A stretch of DNA of 64,000 bases from Methanoculleus taiwanensis (lineage in GTDB: Archaea > Halobacteriota > Methanomicrobia > Methanomicrobiales > Methanoculleaceae), in contig NZ_LHQS01000002.1 of assembly GCF_004102725.1 (NCBI RefSeq), positions 859,984 to 923,983 on the forward strand, written 5' to 3'. Made by a program: the position numbers and the translations under genes. Numbering within the stretch: position 1 is the first letter of the stretch; the number at the start of each line of letters is the position of its first letter. Shown here piece after piece: positions 5,582-41,394 of this stretch. Below the pieces are notes generated by a model. That model had not been told where the DNA came from. It saw nothing but the letters and a program-made list of their open reading frames with translations, and did not search any database.

Positions 5582-6568
5582 GTGGTCGATATTCCTGATA
5601 TCATCGAAGTAGGAGGATTCTCTCATCGTTTCGGCAGCCTGACAGCAGTTGATACCATAACCTTCTCTGTCCGGGATGGTGAGATCTTCTCCCTTCTCGG
5701 GCCGAATGGCGCAGGGAAAAGCACCACAATCAACGTGCTCACCACCCTGCTCCCCCTTCAGAAGGGAGCAGTCAGGGTTGCGGGTTACGATGTCTCCCGC
5801 GATCAGCCGGCCGTCAGGCGTTCGATAGGCATCGTCTTTCAGAATGAGGTGCTTGACCGGGACCTGACCGTATGGGAATCGCTTGAATTTCACGGACGCC
5901 TCTATTCCATCCCCCGGAATGAGCGTGCGGCACGCATTGAGGAACTGATGGCAGTGGTCGAACTGACCGAGAAGAGCGACATCCGGACGAAGTACCTCTC
6001 CGGGGGAATGCGCCGGAGGCTCGAGATCGCCAGGGGGCTCATGACACGCCCCAGGGTTCTGTTTCTCGATGAACCCACTATCGGTCTCGACCCGCAGACC
6101 CGAAGGCGGATCTGGGATTACATCCGGCGGGTGAACGAGGAGGGGACGACGATCTTTCTGACCACGCACTACATGGATGAAGCAGACCACCTCAGCGACC
6201 GCATCGGTATCATCGATCACGGCAGGATTGTCGTCGAGGGAACACCCGAAGAACTGAAGAAGTCACTCGGGAACGATATTGTCTGGCTGGATACCGACGA
6301 TAACGATCAAACCGCTGCTCTCCTCGGCACGATCGGGAGCGTCCATTCCATACGGGCTGCAGGAGAAGGGGTTACCGCCGTCACGAACGAGGATGGAACC
6401 CGGTGTCTCCCGAACGTTATCGATCTCATCTCGCGAAACGGGATCTCTCTTGCCGGGATTAATCTCAAAAAACCCACCATGGACGATGTTTTCATCCACT
6501 ACACCGGGCGGGCGATCCGGGAAGAGAGCACCGATAAGGTTCATCCGCACCAGAGGAGGAGACGATGA
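5582..6568 (+). CDS. ABC transporter ATP-binding protein, DrrA-like exporter
   Basis: This 328-residue ATPase has Walker A GPNGAGKST, the ABC signature LSGGMRRRLEIARGL, Walker B RVLFLDEPTIGLD and the H-loop TTHYMDEAD. The roughly 90-residue C-terminal extension after the H-loop is typical of the DrrA/CcmA daunorubicin-resistance-type ATPases, which energise export of lipids, antibiotics or other amphiphiles. The downstream permease overlaps by four bases (ATGA), so the two are translationally coupled. The frame extends back to a TTG at 5552, but family alignment and the TATA position favour GTG 5582 or TTG 5579. The exported substrate is unknown. Confidence 0.85.
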   Translation: MVDIPDIIEVGGFSHRFGSLTAVDTITFSVRDGEIFSLLGPNGAGKSTTINVLTTLLPLQKGAVRVAGYDVSRDQPAVRRSIGIVFQNEVLDRDLTVWESLEFHGRLYSIPRNERAARIEELMAVVELTEKSDIRTKYLSGGMRRRLEIARGLMTRPRVLFLDEPTIGLDPQTRRRIWDYIRRVNEEGTTIFLTTHYMDEADHLSDRIGIIDHGRIVVEGTPEELKKSLGNDIVWLDTDDNDQTAALLGTIGSVHSIRAAGEGVTAVTNEDGTRCLPNVIDLISRNGISLAGINLKKPTMDDVFIHYTGRAIREESTDKVHPHQRRRR

Positions 6569-7410
6569 ACGCTATCTCGTGGGAGTTTGCGACGGTCTTC
6601 TGGCGCGACATGATCCGGTTCGGCCGCTTCAGGACGCTCCTCTTCTCGTCGCTCCTCCAGCCGGCGATCTGGATGGCGTTCTTCGGGATTGCCATGTCGA
6701 GCAACTTCAACCGGTTCGGCTCGTTCGCTCCCGCCCCCGACGGGGTGACGGCGATCGGCTACCTCACGTTCATGGCGGCGGGGGTGATTGCAATGACCTC
6801 GATGTTCACGAGCCTCTCCGGCGGGATGAGCCTGCTCTTTGACAAGACCTTCGGGCTGATGCGGGAGATGCTCGCAAGTCCGATGCCGAGAAGCCACCTG
6901 CTCGCAGGGATCGGCCTCTCCGGGGTTGTCAAGGCCTGCATCCAGTCCGTGATAATCATGGTCTTCGGCCTCGCCATCGGCGTCGGTTTCTTCCCGGGAA
7001 AGACCCTCGTCGGCATCGCGGTATCGGTTGCGGGCATCCTCATCTTCGTTGGTGTCTTCTCCCTCGGATTTCTCTTTCTCTCCTCGGCGATCGCCCTCAA
7101 ACAGGAGAGCCACGAGGGGATGCAGGGCATCATCACGATGCTCTCGATGCCGCTCTTCTTCACCTCGAACGCCCTCTACCCGGTGGATAACTTCCCGCTC
7201 GTCCTCAAGGCCATCGCCGTGGTCAATCCGCTCACCTACCTGGTCACCGGCATACGCTCGTTCGCCATCGGTAACGAGTTCTACGCGTTCGGACGGGAGT
7301 ACTGCTACACGCAGGCGGACATCCTCTTCGCGTTCGGCGCCCTCTGCCTCTTCACCCTCGTCACCTTTGCGCTCGCCTGGCACTCGGTAAAGCGTGTGTC
7401 GCTGACGTGA
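6565..7410 (+). CDS. ABC-2 type permease, DrrB-like
   Basis: The product has 281 residues and about six membrane helices, with an amphipathic N-terminus (WEFATVFWRDMIRFGRFR) typical of ABC-2 permeases. The segment MREMLASPMPRSHLLAG near residue 105 matches the conserved loop of the family, and the last third contains the usual PLFFTSNALYP stretch. A strong GAGGAGGAG precedes the ATG, which overlaps the stop of the ATPase gene. It should form the membrane pore of the exporter energised by that ATPase. The operon appears to end at a T-tract just downstream. Confidence 0.85.
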   Translation: MNAISWEFATVFWRDMIRFGRFRTLLFSSLLQPAIWMAFFGIAMSSNFNRFGSFAPAPDGVTAIGYLTFMAAGVIAMTSMFTSLSGGMSLLFDKTFGLMREMLASPMPRSHLLAGIGLSGVVKACIQSVIIMVFGLAIGVGFFPGKTLVGIAVSVAGILIFVGVFSLGFLFLSSAIALKQESHEGMQGIITMLSMPLFFTSNALYPVDNFPLVLKAIAVVNPLTYLVTGIRSFAIGNEFYAFGREYCYTQADILFAFGALCLFTLVTFALAWHSVKRVSLT

Positions 7411-30284: not shown

Positions 30285-30512
30285 CCGGAACAAAAACCGG
30301 CATCCCTATCATCCCGCTCCCCGATCTCTTCCGTGAAGAGCATGGATCTCGCTGAATACCGGAGGATCAATACCATCATCGAGCGCGACAGCGCCGACGC
30401 GACCTACAAGTACGCCCATTCTCCGGGGCGTCATCGAGATCTGCCAGCAGTCCTCGCACCTCCGGGAGGACGACGGCGATGCGGTCTGGTTCCCCCTCGG
30501 GCTGACCTCATG
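30285..30512 (+). pseudogene. Truncated duplicate of the HNH nuclease gene 5' end
   Basis: From the ATG at 30342 this reads MDLAEYRRINTIIERDSADA, identical to the first residues of the intact gene that starts at 31685. DNA similarity begins about 57 bases before the ATG in both copies and runs to about 30512. A frameshift at TACGCCC-ATTCTCC breaks the frame after ATYKYA, and the similarity ends at codon 55 or so. The two copies flank the hicBA pair, giving about 1.34 kb between repeats. Confidence 0.8.
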
Positions 30513-30690
30513 TTGTCGATCCCTTACAGCCCCGGATTCGTGGGTTCCGTCTTTCGCAAGATCACCTCTCGAGAGATACCCGGATCATGCCGCGAGGATA
30601 GCAGAGACGCCATCACTGCCGTCCGATCGTGGGGAGGGGGGTGGACGATCGAAGATTTTATCGAGGATTGCCCGGCGAGGGAATGACCGC

Positions 30691-31501: not shown

Positions 31502-31626
31502 TTGCATCTGGGACGCTCCATGCAGGAGAGCGGCAGTCTCCGGCATAATATTTTGCTCTCCGGGTCTCGCTGATGCCTGCAGGTCCCGGAGTTGATCGGG
31601 AAGGCATGTATCTGATTGCAGAAACC

Positions 31627-31849
31627 CTGCCGAACGAAAACCGGCATCCATATCATCCCATTTCTCAATCTCTTCCTGAAGAGCATGGATCTCGCTGAAT
31701 ACCGGAGGATCAACACCATCATCGAGCGCGACAGCGCCGACGCGACCTACAAGTACGCCCTCCTCCGGGGCGTCATCGAGATCTGCCAGCAGTCCTCGCA
31801 CCTCCGGGAGGATGACGGCGATACGGTCTGGTTTCCCCTCGGGCTGCTC
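31627..31849 (+). repeat. Second arm of HNH-gene direct repeat
   Basis: This segment matches 30285-30512 with few mismatches, including about 57 bases upstream of the start codon (AAAACCGGCATCC is shared). It spans the first 55 codons of the intact HNH gene. Confidence 0.75.
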
Positions 31850-32848
31850 GTCGAGAAGTGGCTGCTCTACTACTACCCGATCTTCGCGGCAGCGAGGTTC
31901 ATCCCGCAGAAGAACGGGGAGACGCCGGATCAGGATGCGGGGAAGGTTGTTTCATTCCGGAAGCACTTCATGCCGATCATTGTCTATTACAAAGAACGGG
32001 GTGGCATGTCGGTCTTCTACAATGACTATATTCGCAGTTCTATCCCGGCCGAGATCCAGCCGGCGTTCATAAGTCTGGTGAAGGAGATCCGAAAGACCAT
32101 CACCCAGATGCCGATGAATCACCTCGGGTATTCGCAGTCGAAAAGGCCTTACTCAGTCTTCGACTATACCAGGCCGCTGCCTCGGCTCCCGAACGATAGT
32201 CCGGTCGACCGACCATACCTGATCGAGCACGCCGGCCGGTTCTCCCTCTCACGGGATCTCTGCACGATCTTCGAGTACTTCGGGAGTTTCATCTCGGGGG
32301 AAGAGTGCCTGCTGAAGAAGTGGGCTGCATTTACCGCAGCGGCGGATAAGACACGCACCGTCACTGAGGAGTGCATGCTCTCCCTGCTCACGGCGATGCC
32401 GACGACCGAACGGGCGGTTGCGGATGCTCGCAGCATTTACCGGTCAGTCTTTGAGGAGGAGGGGTCGCTGACCTGTGTCTGGTCGGGGAAGGCCATTTCC
32501 TCACCGGACGCGATGCATATCGACCACGTCCTCCCCTTTTCGGTCTGGAAGAACAACGATCTGTGGAACCTCCTCCCCACCCTCGCGTCGGTTAACGCCA
32601 AAAAGCGTGATCGCATTCCCGACCGTTCACGCTTGGAATCCCGCCGGGAGTGCATCATCGAATACTGGGATCTGCTCCATGATCGTTCTCCTCACCAGTT
32701 TGAGAAAGAGATCTCGGTTTCGCTCTTGGGTCCATATGCTTCATGGACTGACTGGCAGGATCAGGCGTTTGAACGGATGATGCATAAGTGCGCCTACCTG
32801 ATCGATATCAGAGGTTACGAAGCATGGTACAAAACACGGGCATGCTGA
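31685..32848 (+). CDS. HNH endonuclease domain protein
   Basis: The 387-residue product has a long N-terminal region (about residues 1-270) of no known family and a C-terminal HNH domain: MHIDHVLPFSVWKNNDLWN followed by LLPTLASVNAKKRDRIP. The His-Asn-His metal site is complete (IDH, N of NDLWN, and N of SVNAKK). Such large HNH proteins are often parts of defence or mobile elements. A truncated twin lies 1.3 kb upstream. The downstream HIT gene overlaps its end by about 25 bases. Confidence 0.8.
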   Translation: MDLAEYRRINTIIERDSADATYKYALLRGVIEICQQSSHLREDDGDTVWFPLGLLVEKWLLYYYPIFAAARFIPQKNGETPDQDAGKVVSFRKHFMPIIVYYKERGGMSVFYNDYIRSSIPAEIQPAFISLVKEIRKTITQMPMNHLGYSQSKRPYSVFDYTRPLPRLPNDSPVDRPYLIEHAGRFSLSRDLCTIFEYFGSFISGEECLLKKWAAFTAAADKTRTVTEECMLSLLTAMPTTERAVADARSIYRSVFEEEGSLTCVWSGKAISSPDAMHIDHVLPFSVWKNNDLWNLLPTLASVNAKKRDRIPDRSRLESRRECIIEYWDLLHDRSPHQFEKEISVSLLGPYASWTDWQDQAFERMMHKCAYLIDIRGYEAWYKTRAC

Positions 32849-33213: not shown

Positions 33214-33382
33214 GGAGATTCGGTCACGCCGGTTTACGAGAACCAATGACGGCTCGCTCCGATTATACGTGATGAAGCCGCTCCCGTCGAGCCCCCTCCG
33301 AATCAGATCTCGGATGCCCTCGTTCACTTTCAACCCGCGCCCGCCGCGCTTTTATATGCCCCCGTTTCCTGAACGCTTACCT

Positions 33383-34537
33383 ATGAGGCAGAAAGAAACC
33401 CTGCGCTACGACCAGACGCTCTTCCGCGACCGCGAGGTCTTCGAGTTCACGTTTGTCCCCGACCAGCTCAACCACCGCGACGCCCAGATCCGCGAACTCG
33501 CCCTTCTCGCCCGGCCGGCCGTCCGGGGCGGCAGCCCGAGGAGCGCTATCCTCCGCGGTCCGCCCGGCACCGGCAAGACCACCACTGTCCACCGGCTCTT
33601 CGCCGAGATCGAGGAGGCGACGCAGAGGATCGTCCCGGTCTATGTCAACTGCCAGCAGCACCGGACGCCGTTCGCCGTCTTTGCGTGCATCTACGAAAAA
33701 CTCGTCGGCTACGCTCCCCCGTCGGCCGGCCGGCACCTCGACGACGTCGTCGGCAGCATCACGAAACGGCTCGGCGACCGAAACGCCGCGCTCCTCGTCT
33801 GCCTGGACGACGCCAACTACCTGCACGAGGCCAGGCACTTAAACGACCTCCTCTACCGGCTCCTCCGGCTCTACGAATCGTGGGACGTCCGGAAGGCCGG
33901 CGTCTTCGCGGTCTTAAGTGACCTCTCCCTGAACCTCGCCGCCGAGGTCGACGCACAGGTCCGGTCGGTCTTCCACCCGACGGAGGTCTTCTTCCAGCCG
34001 TACGCAAAGCCGGAGATCCGGGAGATCCTGGAGGGCCGGATCCGGCAGGGGCTCTACCCGAACGTGGTGTCGCAGGCGAACACTGCCCTCATCGCGGAGA
34101 TCGCCGCACAGGAGCAGGACGTCCGGGTCGGGATCGACCTCGTCCGGACGGCGGCCGAGCGTGCGGAGAGCGACGGGCGCCGGACGGTCACCAGACAGGA
34201 CGTGATGGCCGCCTCCCGGTCGGTCATCACGCCGACCCTGCAGAAGCGGGCCGCTGACCTGAAGGAGGGCGAGCGTGCCCTGCTCTCCCGCATCGCAGAG
34301 ATGGCACGGGATACCGGCGCGGACATGACCTCGGGTGCGGTCTACGAGGCGGTGCAGGGGTACGCCGTAAGCAGCGAGACGACCTACCGGACACGGTTAA
34401 AGCGGCTCGAGGAGGCGGGGCTCATCGACCTGCCGCTCCGCACCGACCGCGGGCGAACCCGGGAGGTTCTGCTCCGCTTTACCCCCGAGCAGGTGCTCGC
34501 CGTCTGTGAACCGCGGGGGAAAACCGGCGCGGCATAG
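33383..34537 (+). CDS. cdc6: Orc1/Cdc6-type replication initiator
   Basis: The 384-residue product is an Orc1/Cdc6 protein: Walker A GPPGTGKTT near residue 60, Walker B LLVCLDDANYL (Asp where Glu is usual in DE), sensor I FAVLSDLSLN, and a C-terminal winged helix with AVSSETTYRTRLKRLEEAG and GLIDLPLRTDRGRTREVLL. It should bind origin DNA and load a helicase. A TATA box (TTTATATG, 33351-33358) lies about 29 bp before ATG 33383, giving a leaderless mRNA; the frame open from 33269 is not used. A primase-helicase gene follows, so it may serve this local replicon and not the main chromosome origin. Confidence 0.87.
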   Translation: MRQKETLRYDQTLFRDREVFEFTFVPDQLNHRDAQIRELALLARPAVRGGSPRSAILRGPPGTGKTTTVHRLFAEIEEATQRIVPVYVNCQQHRTPFAVFACIYEKLVGYAPPSAGRHLDDVVGSITKRLGDRNAALLVCLDDANYLHEARHLNDLLYRLLRLYESWDVRKAGVFAVLSDLSLNLAAEVDAQVRSVFHPTEVFFQPYAKPEIREILEGRIRQGLYPNVVSQANTALIAEIAAQEQDVRVGIDLVRTAAERAESDGRRTVTRQDVMAASRSVITPTLQKRAADLKEGERALLSRIAEMARDTGADMTSGAVYEAVQGYAVSSETTYRTRLKRLEEAGLIDLPLRTDRGRTREVLLRFTPEQVLAVCEPRGKTGAA

Positions 34538-34596: not shown

Positions 34597-34618
34597 CGGT
34601 TAAGTAACGGTTAAGTAA
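34597..34618. repeat. Tandem 11-bp repeat CGGTTAAGTAA x2
   Basis: Two exact, adjacent copies of CGGTTAAGTAA lie 60 bp after the cdc6 stop, followed by C-rich strings. Direct repeats beside an Orc1/Cdc6 gene may be origin boxes or an operator for the downstream operon. A TATA-like TTTTTAAG follows at about 34653-34660. Confidence 0.6.
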
Positions 34619-34687
34619 CCCCTATTTTCACCCGCACCATTCTCCCCACACCTTTTTAAGCCGTGTACCCGCACGCTCAACCAAGCG

Positions 34688-35122
34688 GTGCATGCAGAAT
34701 GGCTCTTCCCCTCCGGGATTGCCGGTGCACCGCGAAATGCAGCAGCGAGGCTACGCATGAAACAGAAATCACGACCCATACCCCGGGACGAGACTGCAGC
34801 CCCCGGAGAGCGGCGGGGCTCCTCTGTCCCGGCCGGATCGACGAGAGAACGCAAAAGAATCTGCGACGGCAGCCAGGCACAACCAATTGTTTCCAGCACT
34901 CGGATGCACCGGACCGCCAATGGTACTCGGCACTCCAACGATATAAGCGTGTCCGCCCCGGGAGATGCACCGCGGAAGGTGCCGCTCTACCTGATCGCCG
35001 GGGTCGTCGCGGCCGAGGTCGCCCGGCACAAGCGGGCACTCCGGGAGATCCACGTCGTCGGCGCCGCCGGCCACTACTACGCGGTCACCACCGTCGTTGC
35101 CGGAGGGGATACCGATGCCTGA
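34688..35122 (+). CDS. Small protein of unknown function, replicon operon gene 1
   Basis: The frame codes for up to 144 residues from a GTG at 34688, which lies about 30 bp after a TATA-like box; ATG 34757 and GTG 34949 are alternatives. The last 50 residues (KVPLYLIAGVVAAEVARHKR and IHVVGAAGHYYAVTTVVAGG) look folded, while the first half is polar and low in conserved character. No family is recognised. It overlaps the next gene by eight bases and is the first gene of the primase operon. Confidence 0.45.
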   Translation: MHAEWLFPSGIAGAPRNAAARLRMKQKSRPIPRDETAAPGERRGSSVPAGSTRERKRICDGSQAQPIVSSTRMHRTANGTRHSNDISVSAPGDAPRKVPLYLIAGVVAAEVARHKRALREIHVVGAAGHYYAVTTVVAGGDTDA

Positions 35123-35453
35123 GCCGGGAACGCTCGCCTACGGCAGCGGCGGCACCCTCCACGTCGCGGTCGATGCCGAACACTACCGGATCGAACCGGA
35201 GGACGCGAAACACCTGCTCTTCTCCGGGCGGGTGGTGCCGATCCAGCAGGACTGCGTCGTCCGCGACGGCGGGATGCCGATGGGCCAAACGACGATCGAA
35301 GGCCATGCCGCGGTGAACTGCACCGGCAAGGCCGTGGTGCTCCACACCCGCGCCGGCTCGTTCATCATCCCGCTCGTCAGCTTCCAGCGGGTCGCCCGGG
35401 GGGAGGCGGCGAGCGCCCCCCTCTTCCCCCTCATCCCGGGGGTGACGGGGTGA
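35115..35453 (+). CDS. Small protein of unknown function, replicon operon gene 2
   Basis: The 112-residue product starts MPEPGTLAYGSGGTLHVAVD; GGAGGGG is eight bases upstream. It is rich in beta-type sequence with no motif I can assign. It overlaps the previous gene and, by four bases (GTGA), the primase-helicase gene, so it is co-translated with it and may be a replication accessory. Confidence 0.55.
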   Translation: MPEPGTLAYGSGGTLHVAVDAEHYRIEPEDAKHLLFSGRVVPIQQDCVVRDGGMPMGQTTIEGHAAVNCTGKAVVLHTRAGSFIIPLVSFQRVARGEAASAPLFPLIPGVTG

Positions 35454-38311
35454 GCGATCCGATCCGCCGTGCGGCGGAGGTGATCGCCCCGGACGGTGTG
35501 GTGGAGGTGCGGGCACTCGCCGAGAGCGCCGTTCACTCCGGCTACTTCGACGACCGCGCCGAACTCGCCGCCCGGGCGGAGGTGCTCGACGCCGATCCGG
35601 CGGTTGGCGGGATCTACGTCACCCTCAATCCCGTGAACGGGGCGCTCCTCGCCCGGCGGGCGAACCGGATCAAGCTGCGGCTCTCGAGGAAGGACGCGAC
35701 GACGGCCGACGCCGATATCGTGAGACGCCGGTGGCTGCCGGTCGATATCGACCCGGTGCGGCCGAGCGGGGTCTCATCGACGGACGCAGAGCACGACCTC
35801 GCGCTCGCCACCGCCGAGCAGATCGCCGCCTGGCTCAGCGAGCAGGGGTTCCCCGACCCAATAAAGGCCGACTCGGGGAACGGCGCCCACCTGCTCTACC
35901 GGATCGACCTTGCGAACGACGAGGCGGCGACCGGGCTCGTGAAGGGCTGCCTCGCGACCCTCGACGCCCTCTTCTCGAACGAAGTGGTCACCGTCGATAC
36001 CGCGAACTACAACGCCGCCCGGATCTGGAAGCTCTACGGCACCGCATCACGGAAGGGCGATTCCACGCCAGAGCGGCCGCACCGGCGGGCGAGGCTGCTC
36101 GCGGTTCCCGACGGGATCGCAGTGGTTCCGGCGGAACGGCTACGGCACCTCGCCGGCCTGCTCCCGGTGGATGAACCGCCGGCACCGAAGAGGGGCACCG
36201 GCATCGACCTCGCCGCCTGGCTCGCAGGCCACAGGATCGCCGTCCGGTCCGCAAAACCCTACCGGGGCGGGACGCTCTACACCCTCGAGGACTGCCCGTT
36301 CTCGGCGGCGCACAGGGACGGGGCGTTTGCCATCCAGTTTGCGAGCGGTGCCATCTTCGCCGGCTGCCACCACACGAGCTGCGGCGGCGGGACGCAGCGC
36401 TGGCCGGAGCTCCGGGCACGCTACGAGCAGCGGGAGCAGAAACGGGAGAAGAGGGAGCAGGAACAGGGGAAGAAGAACAACTCCCCCCATCCCCCACCAG
36501 AGAATGAGCACCACCACCGGGCAATGGAGATCCTGAAAGAGGGCGATCCGCTTGCGTTCCTGCTCGCGACCTTCAACAAGAGCCACGTCGGCGACCGGAT
36601 CGTGGCGGAGTGCCTGGCGATGTCGGTCGCCTCGCAGTCGGTGGCGAACACGAATGGCCTGCACGTCGCGATCTCGGGGAACTCCGGCAAGGGCAAGAGC
36701 CACGCCTGTTCGACGATGCTCGCCCTCATCCCCGAGGCCTACAAAATGACCGGCACCGTCTCGAACAAAGCGCTCTACTACGCAGACGACCTCCGGCCCG
36801 GGACGGTGATCCTCTTCGACGACACCACGCTCTCCGACGACCTGCAGGAGGTCCTGAAGTCCGCGACCTCCTCGTTCCACGAGCCGATCGAGCACCGGAC
36901 GGTCACGGCCGACCGGCAGCTCCGGGTCTGCAGCATCCCCGAGCGGTGCGTCTGGTGGCTCGCCAAGGTCGAGAACCCGGGCGACGACCAGGTGATGAAC
37001 CGGATGCTCACGGTCTGGATCGACGACTCGGCCGAGCAGGACCGGGCGGTGCTCGAGCACCTCAAGCGGATTGAGGCGGGCGAACATACCAATGGAGATG
37101 ATCCGGACGTCCTGACCGCCCGGGCGCTCTGGTCGATCGTGAAGCAGCAGCGGATCTCCGTCCGGATCCCCTTCGCCCGGCGGATCCAGTTCTCGAACCC
37201 GGCGAACCGCCGCAATCCCGCGATGCTCTTCGACCTGATCAAGTGCCACGCGGCGCTGCGGTTCCTGCAGCGTTCCCCGAAGGAGATCGGCAGCGTCCTC
37301 CATATCGAGGCAACCCGCCAGGACTTCGACGCGGCCGCCCGGCTCTACGGCGCGATCAACCGGGAGGGCGGCGGGCAGGAGTCGAAGATGACCCGGAACG
37401 AAGCGGCGGCACTCCAGACGATCGCCCGGATGGGGTGGGAGACGTTCACGGTCCGGATGCTGCAGCAGGTCACCGGGCTGTCGTACCACCAGGTCAGGCG
37501 GATCTTGCAGGGCTACTCGGCGCGGGGGATGACCTACTGCGGCCTCCTCGAGAAGTGCCCGGCCATCAGCGTGGTGGATGCGACGGTGATCGACGAGAGT
37601 TCGGGGACGACCGTCCGCCGGCACGAGCTCCACTTCCAGTTCGATATCGAGCGCTACCGGGAGTGGATGGCGGAGCTCGCGGTCTGGCTGGAGGATGAGG
37701 ATGCAGACCCCGGGGAGGAGGGCTCCCCGCCGCCTCCGGATGGGTGTTGCAACGATGGTTGCAAACAGGAGTGCAAGGGGGTGTGCAAAGGGGAGTGCAA
37801 AGAGCTCGAGGGTGCAGATTCTCGGCATTATGGCGATAATTTCGAGAACGGGGGGATATTGGGAGAGATTTATCGCGACGATGAGAGGTCGTTTGCAACA
37901 CTTTCCGGATCACGCAGTTCCCCCTGGTTGACTCCACCGGAAGAGCACCCTGATCGCCTGCACGACCGGAGTGAACCGTGTGCTTTCGGATCTGTTGCAA
38001 ACGGAAAACTCGAAAATCGTGATTCGTCGGCGAATCAAGAATCCCTTGGCGCAGTGGAGAGTTCACAGACGAAAAGTGTTTGCACACCCCTTTGCAACAC
38101 CACGTACAACCGTGGTGCAACACCCGTCCGACCGCTGCCCGGCCTGCTCGACCACTGCACGTTCAAGCGGGTGTCCGTCGACCTCGGGCGGTGCACGATC
38201 TGCGACACCGCAAAAGCGGCCTACCACTCACGCGAGGCACGGGCGAGTATCTGCCAGAGATGTTATACCCGGCTGGTGCGGGAGGGGAACGCGAGGGAGG
38301 GGGTGCGGTGA
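35450..38311 (+). CDS. Primase-helicase fusion (AEP-like primase, SF3-like ATPase, winged helix, zinc ribbon)
   Basis: The 953-residue product has an archaeo-eukaryotic primase-like N-terminus: PVDIDPVRPSGVSSTDAEHD carries the acidic metal site, then KADSGNGAHLLYRIDL with the HxY-type residues and RIWKLYGTASRKGDSTPERP. A Cys/His region (CPFSAAHRDGAFAI, CHHTSCGGG) occupies about residues 282-320. The ATPase has Walker A SGNSGKGKSH near residue 409 and Walker B VILFDDTTL near 457. A winged-helix region (TRNEAAALQTIARMG, about 660-740) follows, then a Cys-rich repeat and a zinc ribbon (CTICDTAKAAYH, CQRCYTRLVREG). GTG start overlaps the upstream gene. Such proteins replicate plasmids and viruses. 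Confidence 0.82.
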   Translation: MSDPIRRAAEVIAPDGVVEVRALAESAVHSGYFDDRAELAARAEVLDADPAVGGIYVTLNPVNGALLARRANRIKLRLSRKDATTADADIVRRRWLPVDIDPVRPSGVSSTDAEHDLALATAEQIAAWLSEQGFPDPIKADSGNGAHLLYRIDLANDEAATGLVKGCLATLDALFSNEVVTVDTANYNAARIWKLYGTASRKGDSTPERPHRRARLLAVPDGIAVVPAERLRHLAGLLPVDEPPAPKRGTGIDLAAWLAGHRIAVRSAKPYRGGTLYTLEDCPFSAAHRDGAFAIQFASGAIFAGCHHTSCGGGTQRWPELRARYEQREQKREKREQEQGKKNNSPHPPPENEHHHRAMEILKEGDPLAFLLATFNKSHVGDRIVAECLAMSVASQSVANTNGLHVAISGNSGKGKSHACSTMLALIPEAYKMTGTVSNKALYYADDLRPGTVILFDDTTLSDDLQEVLKSATSSFHEPIEHRTVTADRQLRVCSIPERCVWWLAKVENPGDDQVMNRMLTVWIDDSAEQDRAVLEHLKRIEAGEHTNGDDPDVLTARALWSIVKQQRISVRIPFARRIQFSNPANRRNPAMLFDLIKCHAALRFLQRSPKEIGSVLHIEATRQDFDAAARLYGAINREGGGQESKMTRNEAAALQTIARMGWETFTVRMLQQVTGLSYHQVRRILQGYSARGMTYCGLLEKCPAISVVDATVIDESSGTTVRRHELHFQFDIERYREWMAELAVWLEDEDADPGEEGSPPPPDGCCNDGCKQECKGVCKGECKELEGADSRHYGDNFENGGILGEIYRDDERSFATLSGSRSSPWLTPPEEHPDRLHDRSEPCAFGSVANGKLENRDSSANQESLGAVESSQTKSVCTPLCNTTYNRGATPVRPLPGLLDHCTFKRVSVDLGRCTICDTAKAAYHSREARASICQRCYTRLVREGNAREGVR
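37747..37800. repeat. Five TGCAA repeats at 12-bp spacing inside the primase gene
   Basis: TGCAA begins at 37748, 37760, 37772, 37784 and 37796, exactly 12 bp apart. The flanks differ, so conservation is of the core and the spacing. In frame it gives Cys every four residues. Single TGCAA copies also lie at 37894 and 37996. Confidence 0.8.
37962..38311 (+). repeat. 3' tail of primase gene, first copy of a 0.35-kb direct repeat
   Basis: This segment matches 41026-41394 along its length, including GTTGCAAAC, the TGCAA array and the zinc ribbon codons, ending at the same stop codon (GAGGGGGTGCGGTGA). Confidence 0.8.
38081..38120. repeat. Second TGCAA array in the primase gene
   Basis: TGCAC at 38081, TGCAA at 38093, TACAA at 38105 and TGCAA at 38116 give spacings of 12, 12 and 11 bp. 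The last three also form an imperfect inverted repeat TTGCAACACCAC / CGTGGTGCAA. Confidence 0.75.
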
Positions 38312-38770: not shown

Positions 38771-40273
38771 ATGACCCCCATTCGCATCTTCGTCAGCAGC
38801 GTGCAGAAGGAGTTCGCTGAGGAGCGGCGGGTGCTATTCGATTACATCAGGAGCGACCCTCTGCTGCGTCGTTTTTACAATGTATTCCTCTTCGAAGACC
38901 TGCCGGCTTCCGGGCGCCGGCCGGATGAGACCTATCTGGCAGAGGTAGACCGCTGTGGCGTCTACCTTTGTCTGCTTGGTAACGAGTACGGCCGTGCGGA
39001 TACCGACGGTCGCTCGCCCACCGAACGGGAGTTTGATCGCGCCACTGCCGGAGGTAAGGAGCGCCTGGTCTTCGTTAAAGGCAATGACGACTCAGTGCGC
39101 GATCCGAGGGTGCTTGCTCTTCTCCGCAATGTTGACAGCCAGCTCATCCGCCGTCGTTTCGGCAGCGTCCCGGAGTTGACTGTGGAGGTTTATGCCAGCC
39201 TTGTCGAACACCTGGACCGCACCGGCGCACTGCGAACCCGCCCATTTGATGCCTCCGCATGTGCCGATGCTACGCTCGATGCTATCTCGCAGGAGAAGGT
39301 CGGGGAGTTTCTTTCCCGTGCTCAGCAAAGTCGAGGGTATGCCCTCAGCCCCAATACCCCGGTGCGCAAAGCGCTGGCGCACCTTAACCTGCTTGATGGG
39401 AGTCTCCCCAACAACGCGGCTGTGCTCCTATTCGGTAAACAGCCTCAGCGTTTCCTCGCCAGCTCCGAGGTCAAGTGCCTTCACTTCCACGGAACCGTTG
39501 TGGGCAAACCCATTCCCTCCTACCAGATTTACAAGGGCACTGTCTTTGAACTGGTCGATCAGTCGCTTGACTTCGTCCTCTCCAAGATTGCCCGTTCTAT
39601 CGGCACCCGAGCCGAGGGGCCTACGGCCCCGGCGACATACGAGGTCCCTCCAGAAGCTGTGGGCGAGGCTATCGTCAATGCTGTTGCGCACCGCGACTAT
39701 GCTTCAAATGCCTCGGTTCAGGTCATGCTCTTTTCCGACCGATTGGAGGTGTGGAATCCCGGTCAACTGCCGCCGTCCCTTTCGCCCGAGGCGCTCCGTG
39801 TCCCGCATCCCTCTATCCCGCGCAACCCTCTCATTGCAGAACCGCTCTTCCTGACTCGTTATATTGATAAAGCCGGCACCGGAACCCTTGATATGATCGA
39901 GCAGTGTATCCAGGCCGGCCTGCCGCCGCCGGAATTCCGGCAGAATGGCGAGCAGTTCGTCCAGGTTCTATGGCGCCCCGGGCGAGACCGGGTAATACGT
40001 GCTAAAACAGGGGACCAGGTGGGGACCAAGTTGGGACTAAGCGGGGACCAAGTCGAAGTGCTGCGCGCCTGTATGGCAGAGACACCCATCTCTGAACTTA
40101 TGGATATTGCAGGGAGGACGAACCGCACCAAATTCAGGAACGCCATACTGAAGCCACTGATGCAGGCGGGGTTGATCGAGATGACCATCCCGGACAGGCC
40201 CCGGAGCGGCAACCAGAAGTATCGGGTCACTGAGAGGGGGCGTGCCCTGCTTGCCGGGAGGGATACGCCGTGA
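38771..40273 (+). CDS. DUF4062 protein with RecG-like/HATPase_c_4 domains
   Basis: The 500-residue product starts with RIFVSSVQKEFAEERRVLF, a DUF4062 domain (about residues 1-120) with a TIR-like look. Then come a divalent-type AlbA_2/schlafen-like stretch (KALAHLNLL, about 195-290) and the histidine-kinase-type ATP site of RecG-like transcription proteins (EAIVNAVAHRDYASNASVQV, DRLEVWNPGQLPPSL; about 310-385) and a winged helix (RNAILKPLMQAGLIEM). DUF4062 is often fused to defence NTPases. Codon use is looser and GC lower than its neighbours, which supports transfer. A decayed copy of the ATP domain follows directly. Confidence 0.75.
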   Translation: MTPIRIFVSSVQKEFAEERRVLFDYIRSDPLLRRFYNVFLFEDLPASGRRPDETYLAEVDRCGVYLCLLGNEYGRADTDGRSPTEREFDRATAGGKERLVFVKGNDDSVRDPRVLALLRNVDSQLIRRRFGSVPELTVEVYASLVEHLDRTGALRTRPFDASACADATLDAISQEKVGEFLSRAQQSRGYALSPNTPVRKALAHLNLLDGSLPNNAAVLLFGKQPQRFLASSEVKCLHFHGTVVGKPIPSYQIYKGTVFELVDQSLDFVLSKIARSIGTRAEGPTAPATYEVPPEAVGEAIVNAVAHRDYASNASVQVMLFSDRLEVWNPGQLPPSLSPEALRVPHPSIPRNPLIAEPLFLTRYIDKAGTGTLDMIEQCIQAGLPPPEFRQNGEQFVQVLWRPGRDRVIRAKTGDQVGTKLGLSGDQVEVLRACMAETPISELMDIAGRTNRTKFRNAILKPLMQAGLIEMTIPDRPRSGNQKYRVTERGRALLAGRDTP

Positions 40274-40309: not shown

Positions 40310-40784
40310 TGCGAGATCCCAAAGGAGGTGGTGGCGGAGGCGGTCGTCAACGCCGTCGCCCACCGCGACTACACGAGCAACGGCAGCGTCCAGGTGATGC
40401 TCTTTGCGGACCGGCTGGAGGTCTGGAACCCGGGCAGACTCCCGCCGTCCCTGACGCTCGAGAAACTGCGGCAGGCGCACGGGTCGGTGCCGGGCTTCGG
40501 CTCCCGGTCAGGGGCCGCAGCTAGGGTCGCGGCCGGAATCACTGGAAGCGAGAGTCCTCCTGCTCCTCGAGGGCGAGCCGAAGTCCAAAGCAGAGCTCTC
40601 CAGGGAACTCGGACAGAAAGAGATCTCGGGCCAGCAGAGCAAGGTCGTCCGCCAGCTCCTGGCTGATCAGCTGATCGAGTATACCATCCCCGAAAAACCG
40701 AGTAGCCGGTTCCAGAAGTACCGCCTCACCGGGAAAGGCCGGGCAACGCTCGCGAAACCCGGTTCTGAGGGAGACATGCCGTGA
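40310..40784 (+). pseudogene. Decayed copy of a RecG-like ATP-binding gene
   Basis: The first part reads EVVAEAVVNAVAHRDYTSNG and DRLEVWNPGRLPPSL, like residues 295-355 of the gene just upstream. The C-terminal part in another frame reads LLADQLIEYTIPEKPSSRFQ and KYRLTGKGRATLAKPG. A deletion and a frameshift near 40480-40560 separate the two. The remnant differs from the intact gene in wording, so it comes from a diverged paralogue. Confidence 0.75.
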
Positions 40785-40926: not shown

Positions 40927-41394
40927 ATGAGTGATGAGCGCCGGGCGGGGCTTGAACGGCCGCACTACATCACAAATGTCCTGAAAGCCGGCGGCAGAGC
41001 AGTGCACCGGAAGATCGCCCTGACTCGCATGCACGGCCGGAGCGAACGGTGTGTTTTCGGATCTGTTGCAAACGAAAAAATCGAAAATGGCAATTCATCA
41101 GGAAATGCTGTAACGCCCGGCGTAACAAAGAGTTCGCAGACCGAAAGTGTTTGCACTCCTGTTTGCACACCCCTTTGCAACACCATGTACAACAGTGTTG
41201 CAACGCCCGTCAGGCCGCTGCCCGGGCCGCTCGACCACCGGACGTTCAAGCGGGTGTCCGTCGACCTCGGGCGGTGCACAATCTGCGACACCGGGAAGGC
41301 GGCCTACCACTCACGCGAGGCGCGGGCGAGTATCTGCCAGGGGTGCTATGCCCGGCTGGTGCGGGAGGGGAACGCAAGGGAGGGGGTGCGGTGA
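40927..41394 (+). CDS. Zinc-ribbon protein, duplicate of the primase tail
   Basis: The 155-residue product starts at ATG 40927 with about 30 residues of unrelated sequence, then repeats the primase tail: CVFGSVANEKIENGN, a Cys-x3-Cys run (SVCTPVCTPLCN), and the ribbon CTICDTGKAAYH with CQGCYARLVREG. It ends at the same stop as the primase gene copy. It may be expressed as a free DNA-binding subunit, or be a by-product of the duplication. The array has one 12-bp unit more than the other copy. Confidence 0.55.
   Translation: MSDERRAGLERPHYITNVLKAGGRAVHRKIALTRMHGRSERCVFGSVANEKIENGNSSGNAVTPGVTKSSQTESVCTPVCTPLCNTMYNSVATPVRPLPGPLDHRTFKRVSVDLGRCTICDTGKAAYHSREARASICQGCYARLVREGNAREGVR
41152..41204. 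repeat. Third TGCAA array, in the duplicated tail
   Basis: TGCAC at 41152 and 41164, TGCAA at 41176, TACAA at 41188 and TGCAA at 41199 are spaced 12, 12, 12 and 11 bp. This is the same pattern as 38081-38120 with one additional unit. Confidence 0.75.

Follow-up and report, generated by a model that had tools for sequence, protein, structure and literature searches.

Putative Rep-bound iterons inside the primase-helicase gene of an integrated archaeal replicon family

The rep locus, its repeat arrays, and its relatives

The window analyzed here, a 64,000-nucleotide stretch of the Methanoculleus taiwanensis genome (contig NZ_LHQS01000002.1), carries a long gene, herein referred to as rep, that follows a small conserved open reading frame and an Orc1/Cdc6 gene (table 1). 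No Pfam or NCBIfam family was matched by Rep, and the RepA_N domain is absent from it. In the full-length AlphaFold model (mean pLDDT 78), the AAA+ domain is most similar to MCM helicases by Foldseek, and the N-terminal domain modeled alone (pLDDT 90) has the RSF1010 primase RepB' as its closest structure, with D99/D101, H147, D183, and R191 invariant in 57 sequences, as candidates for AEP catalytic motifs I–III and a motif IV arginine. The middle, helicase part also matches Rep of small Methanothermobacter plasmids, and the C-terminal domain shows the cysteine pattern of a Zn finger in the model. Residues 751–892 are modeled below pLDDT 50, and the array DNA coincides with their codons. As modeled, this combination of RepB'-like primase, MCM-like helicase, and winged helix is the architecture of a replication initiator.

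Table 1. Features of the rep locus in the window; residue numbers are those of Rep
Feature	Position	Strand	Basis or remark
Orc1/Cdc6 gene	33269..34537	+	0.9 kb upstream of rep; similar placing at a subset of loci
Small conserved ORF immediately before rep	35097..35453	+	At 82 loci; product without Pfam match
rep gene, 953 aa	35450..38311	+	AlphaFold models, Foldseek
AEP primase domain	residues about 1–335
MCM-like AAA+ helicase domain	residues about 350–640
Winged helix	residues 649–748
Disordered linker, arrays in its coding DNA	residues 751–892
C-terminal Zn finger	residues 893–953
HTH/wing codons, residues 661–698	37430..37543	+	Predicted secondary structure; covariation with repeat word
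Recognition helix	residues 679–687		Predicted secondary structure
Codon of residue 680	37487–37489	+
Codon of residue 691	37520–37522	+
Left array of putative iterons, five TGCAA cores at exactly 12 bp	37746..37802	+
AT-richer interval, left array to first lone site; candidate unwinding element	37803..37890	.	AT in homologues
Lone reverse site TTGCAACA	37893..37900	-	Same place in homologues
Lone forward site TGTTGCAA	37993..38000	+	Same place in homologues
Right array of putative iterons, inverted relative to left; last site forward (38113–38120)	38079..38120	-
Solo Rep 3' end, 155 codons, retaining right array (41151–41179) and one lone site	40927..41394	+

The five TGCAA starts that the original prediction placed 12 bp apart are confirmed by the letters (37748, 37760, 37772, 37784, and 37796), and the spaced pair TGCAA-N7-TGCAA occurs eight times in the window versus 0.03 times expected from dinucleotide shuffles; the repeats are real and far beyond chance. 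The same prediction was right about "close variants" at 38081, 38093, 38105, and 38116, which read TGCAC, TGCAA, TACAA, and TGCAA at spacings of 12, 12, and 11 bp. The second array matches the first when read on the opposite strand (minus strand 38080–38096: TGCAAAGGGGTGTGCAA), hence the two are inverted, and the two lone sites lie between them. A third array sits in the solo copy of the rep 3' end, and two further sets of like kind occur in the genome: one in a paralogue at C2:565 kb whose layout is that of the window, the other in a remnant at C4:132 kb whose frame is broken while its arrays are intact. Solo 3' ends with arrays and without a full Rep recur across several genomes, also at L040 (about 6150–6800), L045, and L058, one of the four being frame-broken; such copies may represent remnants, act as decoys, or be satellites relying on Rep in trans.

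Relatives of Rep were found in 129 of the 199 Methanomicrobiales genomes searched, with several per genome. Their neighborhoods are those of integrated mobile elements: a phage integrase lies near 23 loci, a Hjc/Mrr-like nuclease near 28, and Cdc6 near 28. All copies known so far sit within a chromosome or contig; no circular contig carried rep, and plasmid, phage, and IMG/VR collections held no episomal relative.

Directly downstream of rep is a gene with DUF4062, HATPase_c_4, and Fic-like C-terminal domains (38771–40273), followed by a partial second copy (40328–40666), and relatives of this gene occur near 14 rep loci; inside the gene itself, at 40010–40053, the 11-bp unit GGGGACCAAGT is present four times. 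Between cdc6 and the rep operon there is a perfect 11-bp direct repeat of CGGTTAAGTAA (34597–34619), perhaps a promoter or Cdc6 element, and a partial copy (30333–30686) of the start of a 410-aa ORF (31616–32848) lies just upstream of that ORF.

Selection on the repeats as DNA and a site map shared by relatives

The linker-coding DNA of homologues carries differing 8-bp words (TGTTGCAA, TGCTGCAA, TGCTGAAA, TGCTGTCA, TGCGGAAG, and others), and about a third of homologues have no clear repeated 8-mer. In most homologues, the top 8-mer is more frequent than in nearly all of 200 synonymous-codon shuffles, and more frequent than in the rest of the same gene. Pooled over all genes, exact words occupy all six strand and frame combinations (49, 32, and 118 in frames 0, 1, and 2 of the plus strand; 41, 42, and 99 on the minus strand). 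In four homologues (L103, L106, L107, and L108), only the first 84 bp of the region are within the Rep frame; most of the array lies past the stop codon, where the right-hand part of the site map is retained. In L106 and L107 this part has stops in all three frames, whereas L103 keeps one frame open and is a weaker case taken alone.

These data bear directly on the alternative offered in the original prediction, that a Cys-x3-Cys peptide is what is selected. The proposal is understandable from the window's clade, where the cores are in frame and place a cysteine at every fourth residue in both arrays. It fails because the words occur in all frames and on both strands, synonymous-codon shuffles fail to reproduce them, other homologues have changed peptides without the motif, and some arrays are noncoding. 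Additionally, lysine codons in the array segment run AAA:AAG 62:22 against 63:276 elsewhere, and the segment is predicted to be disordered. The repeats are selected as DNA, and we give practically no credence to this or any other peptide as the selected feature.

Beneath the differing words lies a conserved map. Across five loci (L118, L182, L202, L225, and L124), site positions are conserved to 1–2 bp and the word has changed at every site. The shared map consists, on the left, of four reverse sites and one forward site; in the middle, of a lone reverse site about 88 bp on and a lone forward site about 77 bp further; and on the right, of one reverse site and then several forward ones, giving an overall dyad layout. 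Strict 12-bp spacing, which had been put forward as an iteron trait, holds in the window's clade only, whereas homologues space their sites by 8–11 bp; within this clade, multiplication of the inner sites has produced 12-bp arrays atop the older dyad map. The bin that matches the AT-richer interval of the window has a mean AT content of 0.63 in 54 homologues against about 0.37 in the flanks, and AT enrichment beside the sites is moderate overall (0.46–0.63 vs. about 0.37). Elsewhere near rep genes, only 47 copies of the words occur in 882 kb. Separately, the array segment of L080 (5871–6372) is an in-frame tandem repeat of 153-bp units in 3.3 copies (TRF); TGCTGTCA is present 17 times in L080 and 14 times in L078, both of which encode a longer Rep through a multiplied array segment.

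Covariation of the word with the winged helix of Rep

We computed partial correlations between word difference and protein difference with overall Rep divergence removed; relatives are not independent, and the permutation p values serve as guides. Word difference correlates with difference in the Rep HTH (residues 676–700; r = 0.61, n = 49, reached by 0 of 2,000 permutations), and the best 15-residue window within Rep 1–745 is 681–695. The small upstream protein covaries only weakly with the word (r = 0.14) and was rejected as the binder. At the 14 loci with an adjacent Cdc6, the word gives r = -0.20 with Cdc6 and r = 0.63 (p = 0.0005) with the Rep HTH in the same set. The original prediction had named the encoded protein or Cdc6 as possible binders; these correlations favor the former and speak against the latter, and we infer that the encoded Rep, not Cdc6, is likely to bind the words.

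Individual residues track individual letters. HQ at residues 680–681 accompanies GCAA, QQ accompanies GAAA, and QK accompanies GTCA; where residue 691 is S or T, word position 3 is mostly C, whereas A at 691 goes with T and, more weakly, N with G. On trees built from three separate protein parts, with words assigned semi-manually from automated lists, 10–14 of 12–15 changes at residue 691 fall on branches where word position 3 changes, against a null mean of about 3 and maximum of 8–10. Changes at 680–681 did not co-occur with word changes above chance over the whole tree. Among close relatives there are two minimal pairs: L050 and L046, 90.7% identical over 745 aa, differ in the HTH/wing by T691A alone and carry TGCTGCAA and TGTTGCAA, respectively, and L083 and L073 differ there by H680Q alone and carry TGCTGCAA and TGCTGAAA. 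An automated, orientation-free classification, in which only nine genes were new and the others came from the training set and first held-out set, recovered S with C in 74 of 81 cases and A with T in 8 of 10; N was found with G in 5 of 24, disagreed in 4, and was uncalled in the others. The rule is imperfect, L108 and L140 being among its exceptions, and the pattern in these sequences would be a partial recognition code. Exchange of the HTH and array as one cassette was rejected as the sole cause of covariation, given that the co-change persists on trees of the HTH flanks and of the 3' end; some such exchange may have contributed.

A proposed origin inside the initiator gene, its alternatives, and known systems

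We hypothesize, with considerable confidence, that the repeats are iterons bound by Rep and together constitute the origin from which an integrated archaeal replicon is copied. This iteron reading, an origin inside the initiator gene as known for lambda O, was that of the original prediction and is now backed by selection at the DNA level, concerted word switching on a conserved map, and covariation with the Rep HTH, all of which are computational observations; physical binding of Rep at the sites and a replication start there are what we infer from them. Multiple direct and inverted copies of one word are present above chance, and the match between sites and the DNA-binding domain of their cognate initiator is seen as covariation, with exceptions. 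Mechanistically, the winged helix of Rep, made from the same gene, would bind several site copies through recognition-helix residue 680 and its neighbors and wing residue 691. The dyad layout of the arrays would set Rep on both sides of the AT-richer stretch, where it could load its own MCM-like helicase and lay primers with the primase of the same chain. Placing the origin in the gene would create the linker peptide as a by-product and would link every Rep to the sites in its gene; joint changes in protein and sites would give rise to new specificity groups.

Iterons of known plasmids often serve several roles, and the sites could bind Rep for partition, copy-number control (handcuffing), or autoregulation rather than as an origin, an option to which the solo arrays without a Rep gene lend some weight. 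We nevertheless regard it as unlikely: almost no words lie near the operon promoter, and an origin better accounts for the dyad, its AT-richer interval, and the primase-helicase nature of the protein. A promoter operator was rejected on the scarcity of words elsewhere near the gene. That the sites are ORB-like and bind Orc1/Cdc6, at an origin of either the chromosome or an element, is suggested by the Cdc6 gene upstream of rep and near 28 loci, and by words such as GGTGGAAAC, which we take to be similar to half of an archaeal ORB. Most rep loci retain arrays in the absence of a neighboring Cdc6 gene, and repeat specificity does not follow Cdc6 but the Rep HTH (14 loci only), making this reading quite improbable.

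The inverted arrays might instead work by forming a hairpin, either in RNA or in single-stranded DNA, like the stem-loop downstream of rep in pRN1 (PMC4234260), and the window's array segment, the only one folded, does fold better as RNA than shuffles (z = -5.8). Pairing, however, predicts neither the word identity of the lone sites, nor concerted word switching, nor covariation with the Rep HTH, and the array segment had no match in Rfam, by which a known RNA family was also rejected; we hold a hairpin to be very improbable.

The cumulative GC-skew minimum of the window lies at 37361, inside rep, with a sign change of AT skew nearby; over 89 non-independent loci, GC skew of the right flank exceeds that of the left by 0.046 (SE 0.0085), and the sign change at rep loci resembles that at the main cdc6 locus of the same genome (skew sampled from stretches). 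The GC-skew flip lends weak support to replication from the rep locus because rep's own composition contributes to it. That rep loci are more than dormant elements and serve as working extra chromosomal origins in Methanomicrobiales, each with its own Rep-iteron specificity, seems to us doubtful.

Neither an origin within an initiator gene nor the diversification of iterons is new by itself. As far as the literature searched shows, the archaeal family, its conserved map with concerted word replacement, the natural comparison of coding and noncoding arrays, and the partial recognition code with single-residue pairs are new. For a replicon family present in most Methanomicrobiales, with no origin described in the literature searched, the locus supplies a candidate origin whose sites are mapped. 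The family also forms a series of naturally occurring, matched changes in protein and DNA specificity, in which the recognition of DNA letters by amino acids is partly readable because sites and protein change together across relatives. For the single-residue pairs, one amino acid change is predicted to go with base switches at many sites together, and the system could give methanogen shuttle vectors of several compatibility groups.

Geminivirus iterons likewise conserve positions and pattern while the word diversifies with the cognate Rep, but they lie upstream of the gene in a rolling-circle system of plant viruses (PMC12548392). In repABC plasmids, oriV is inside repC, with an AT-rich region sensitive to silent changes (PMC3155836); the origin is thus within initiator coding sequence, as proposed here, whereas repC has no iterons and belongs to another protein family. 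Among archaeal systems, pRN1 orf904 is also a primase-helicase-winged-helix Rep, with an SF3 helicase and a putative origin in its downstream stem-loop rather than in the gene (PMC4234260). The Rep of the Methanothermobacter plasmids pMTBMA4 and pMTB1 has a related helicase domain (23% identity, E about 1e-8 to 1e-9); the primase domain had no match in it, and a search for intragenic word arrays revealed none comparable.

The PrimPol-PV1 primases (PrimQH, RepB', PolpTN2) resemble Rep in their AEP primase, Zn-binding region, winged helix, accompanying and sometimes MCM-like helicase, and integrated elements, and differ in being mostly bacterial or from Thermococcales; the portion of the source consulted describes neither intragenic iterons nor a Zn finger after a disordered iteron-encoding segment (PMC5862659). 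Kazlauskas et al. propose that the winged helix of mobile-element primases recognizes the origin (PMC5862659), a proposal that the covariation of word and Rep HTH fits and for which it offers a concrete case.

The closest parallel in design is the RepA_N plasmid pSK41, where Rep boxes lie centrally in rep, are bound by the winged HTH of Rep, and fall in a stretch encoding a dispensable, deletable linker (PMC5703833). Our Rep is an unrelated protein, archaeal and confined to integrated elements, in which a single chain combines an AEP primase with an MCM-like helicase and the winged helix immediately precedes the origin segment instead of being N-terminal, and its binding is predicted from covariation. 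Both systems nonetheless share a winged-HTH Rep with boxes in its own gene, a linker-encoding segment followed by a conserved C-terminal domain, and several incompatibility groups, which for Rep are predicted.
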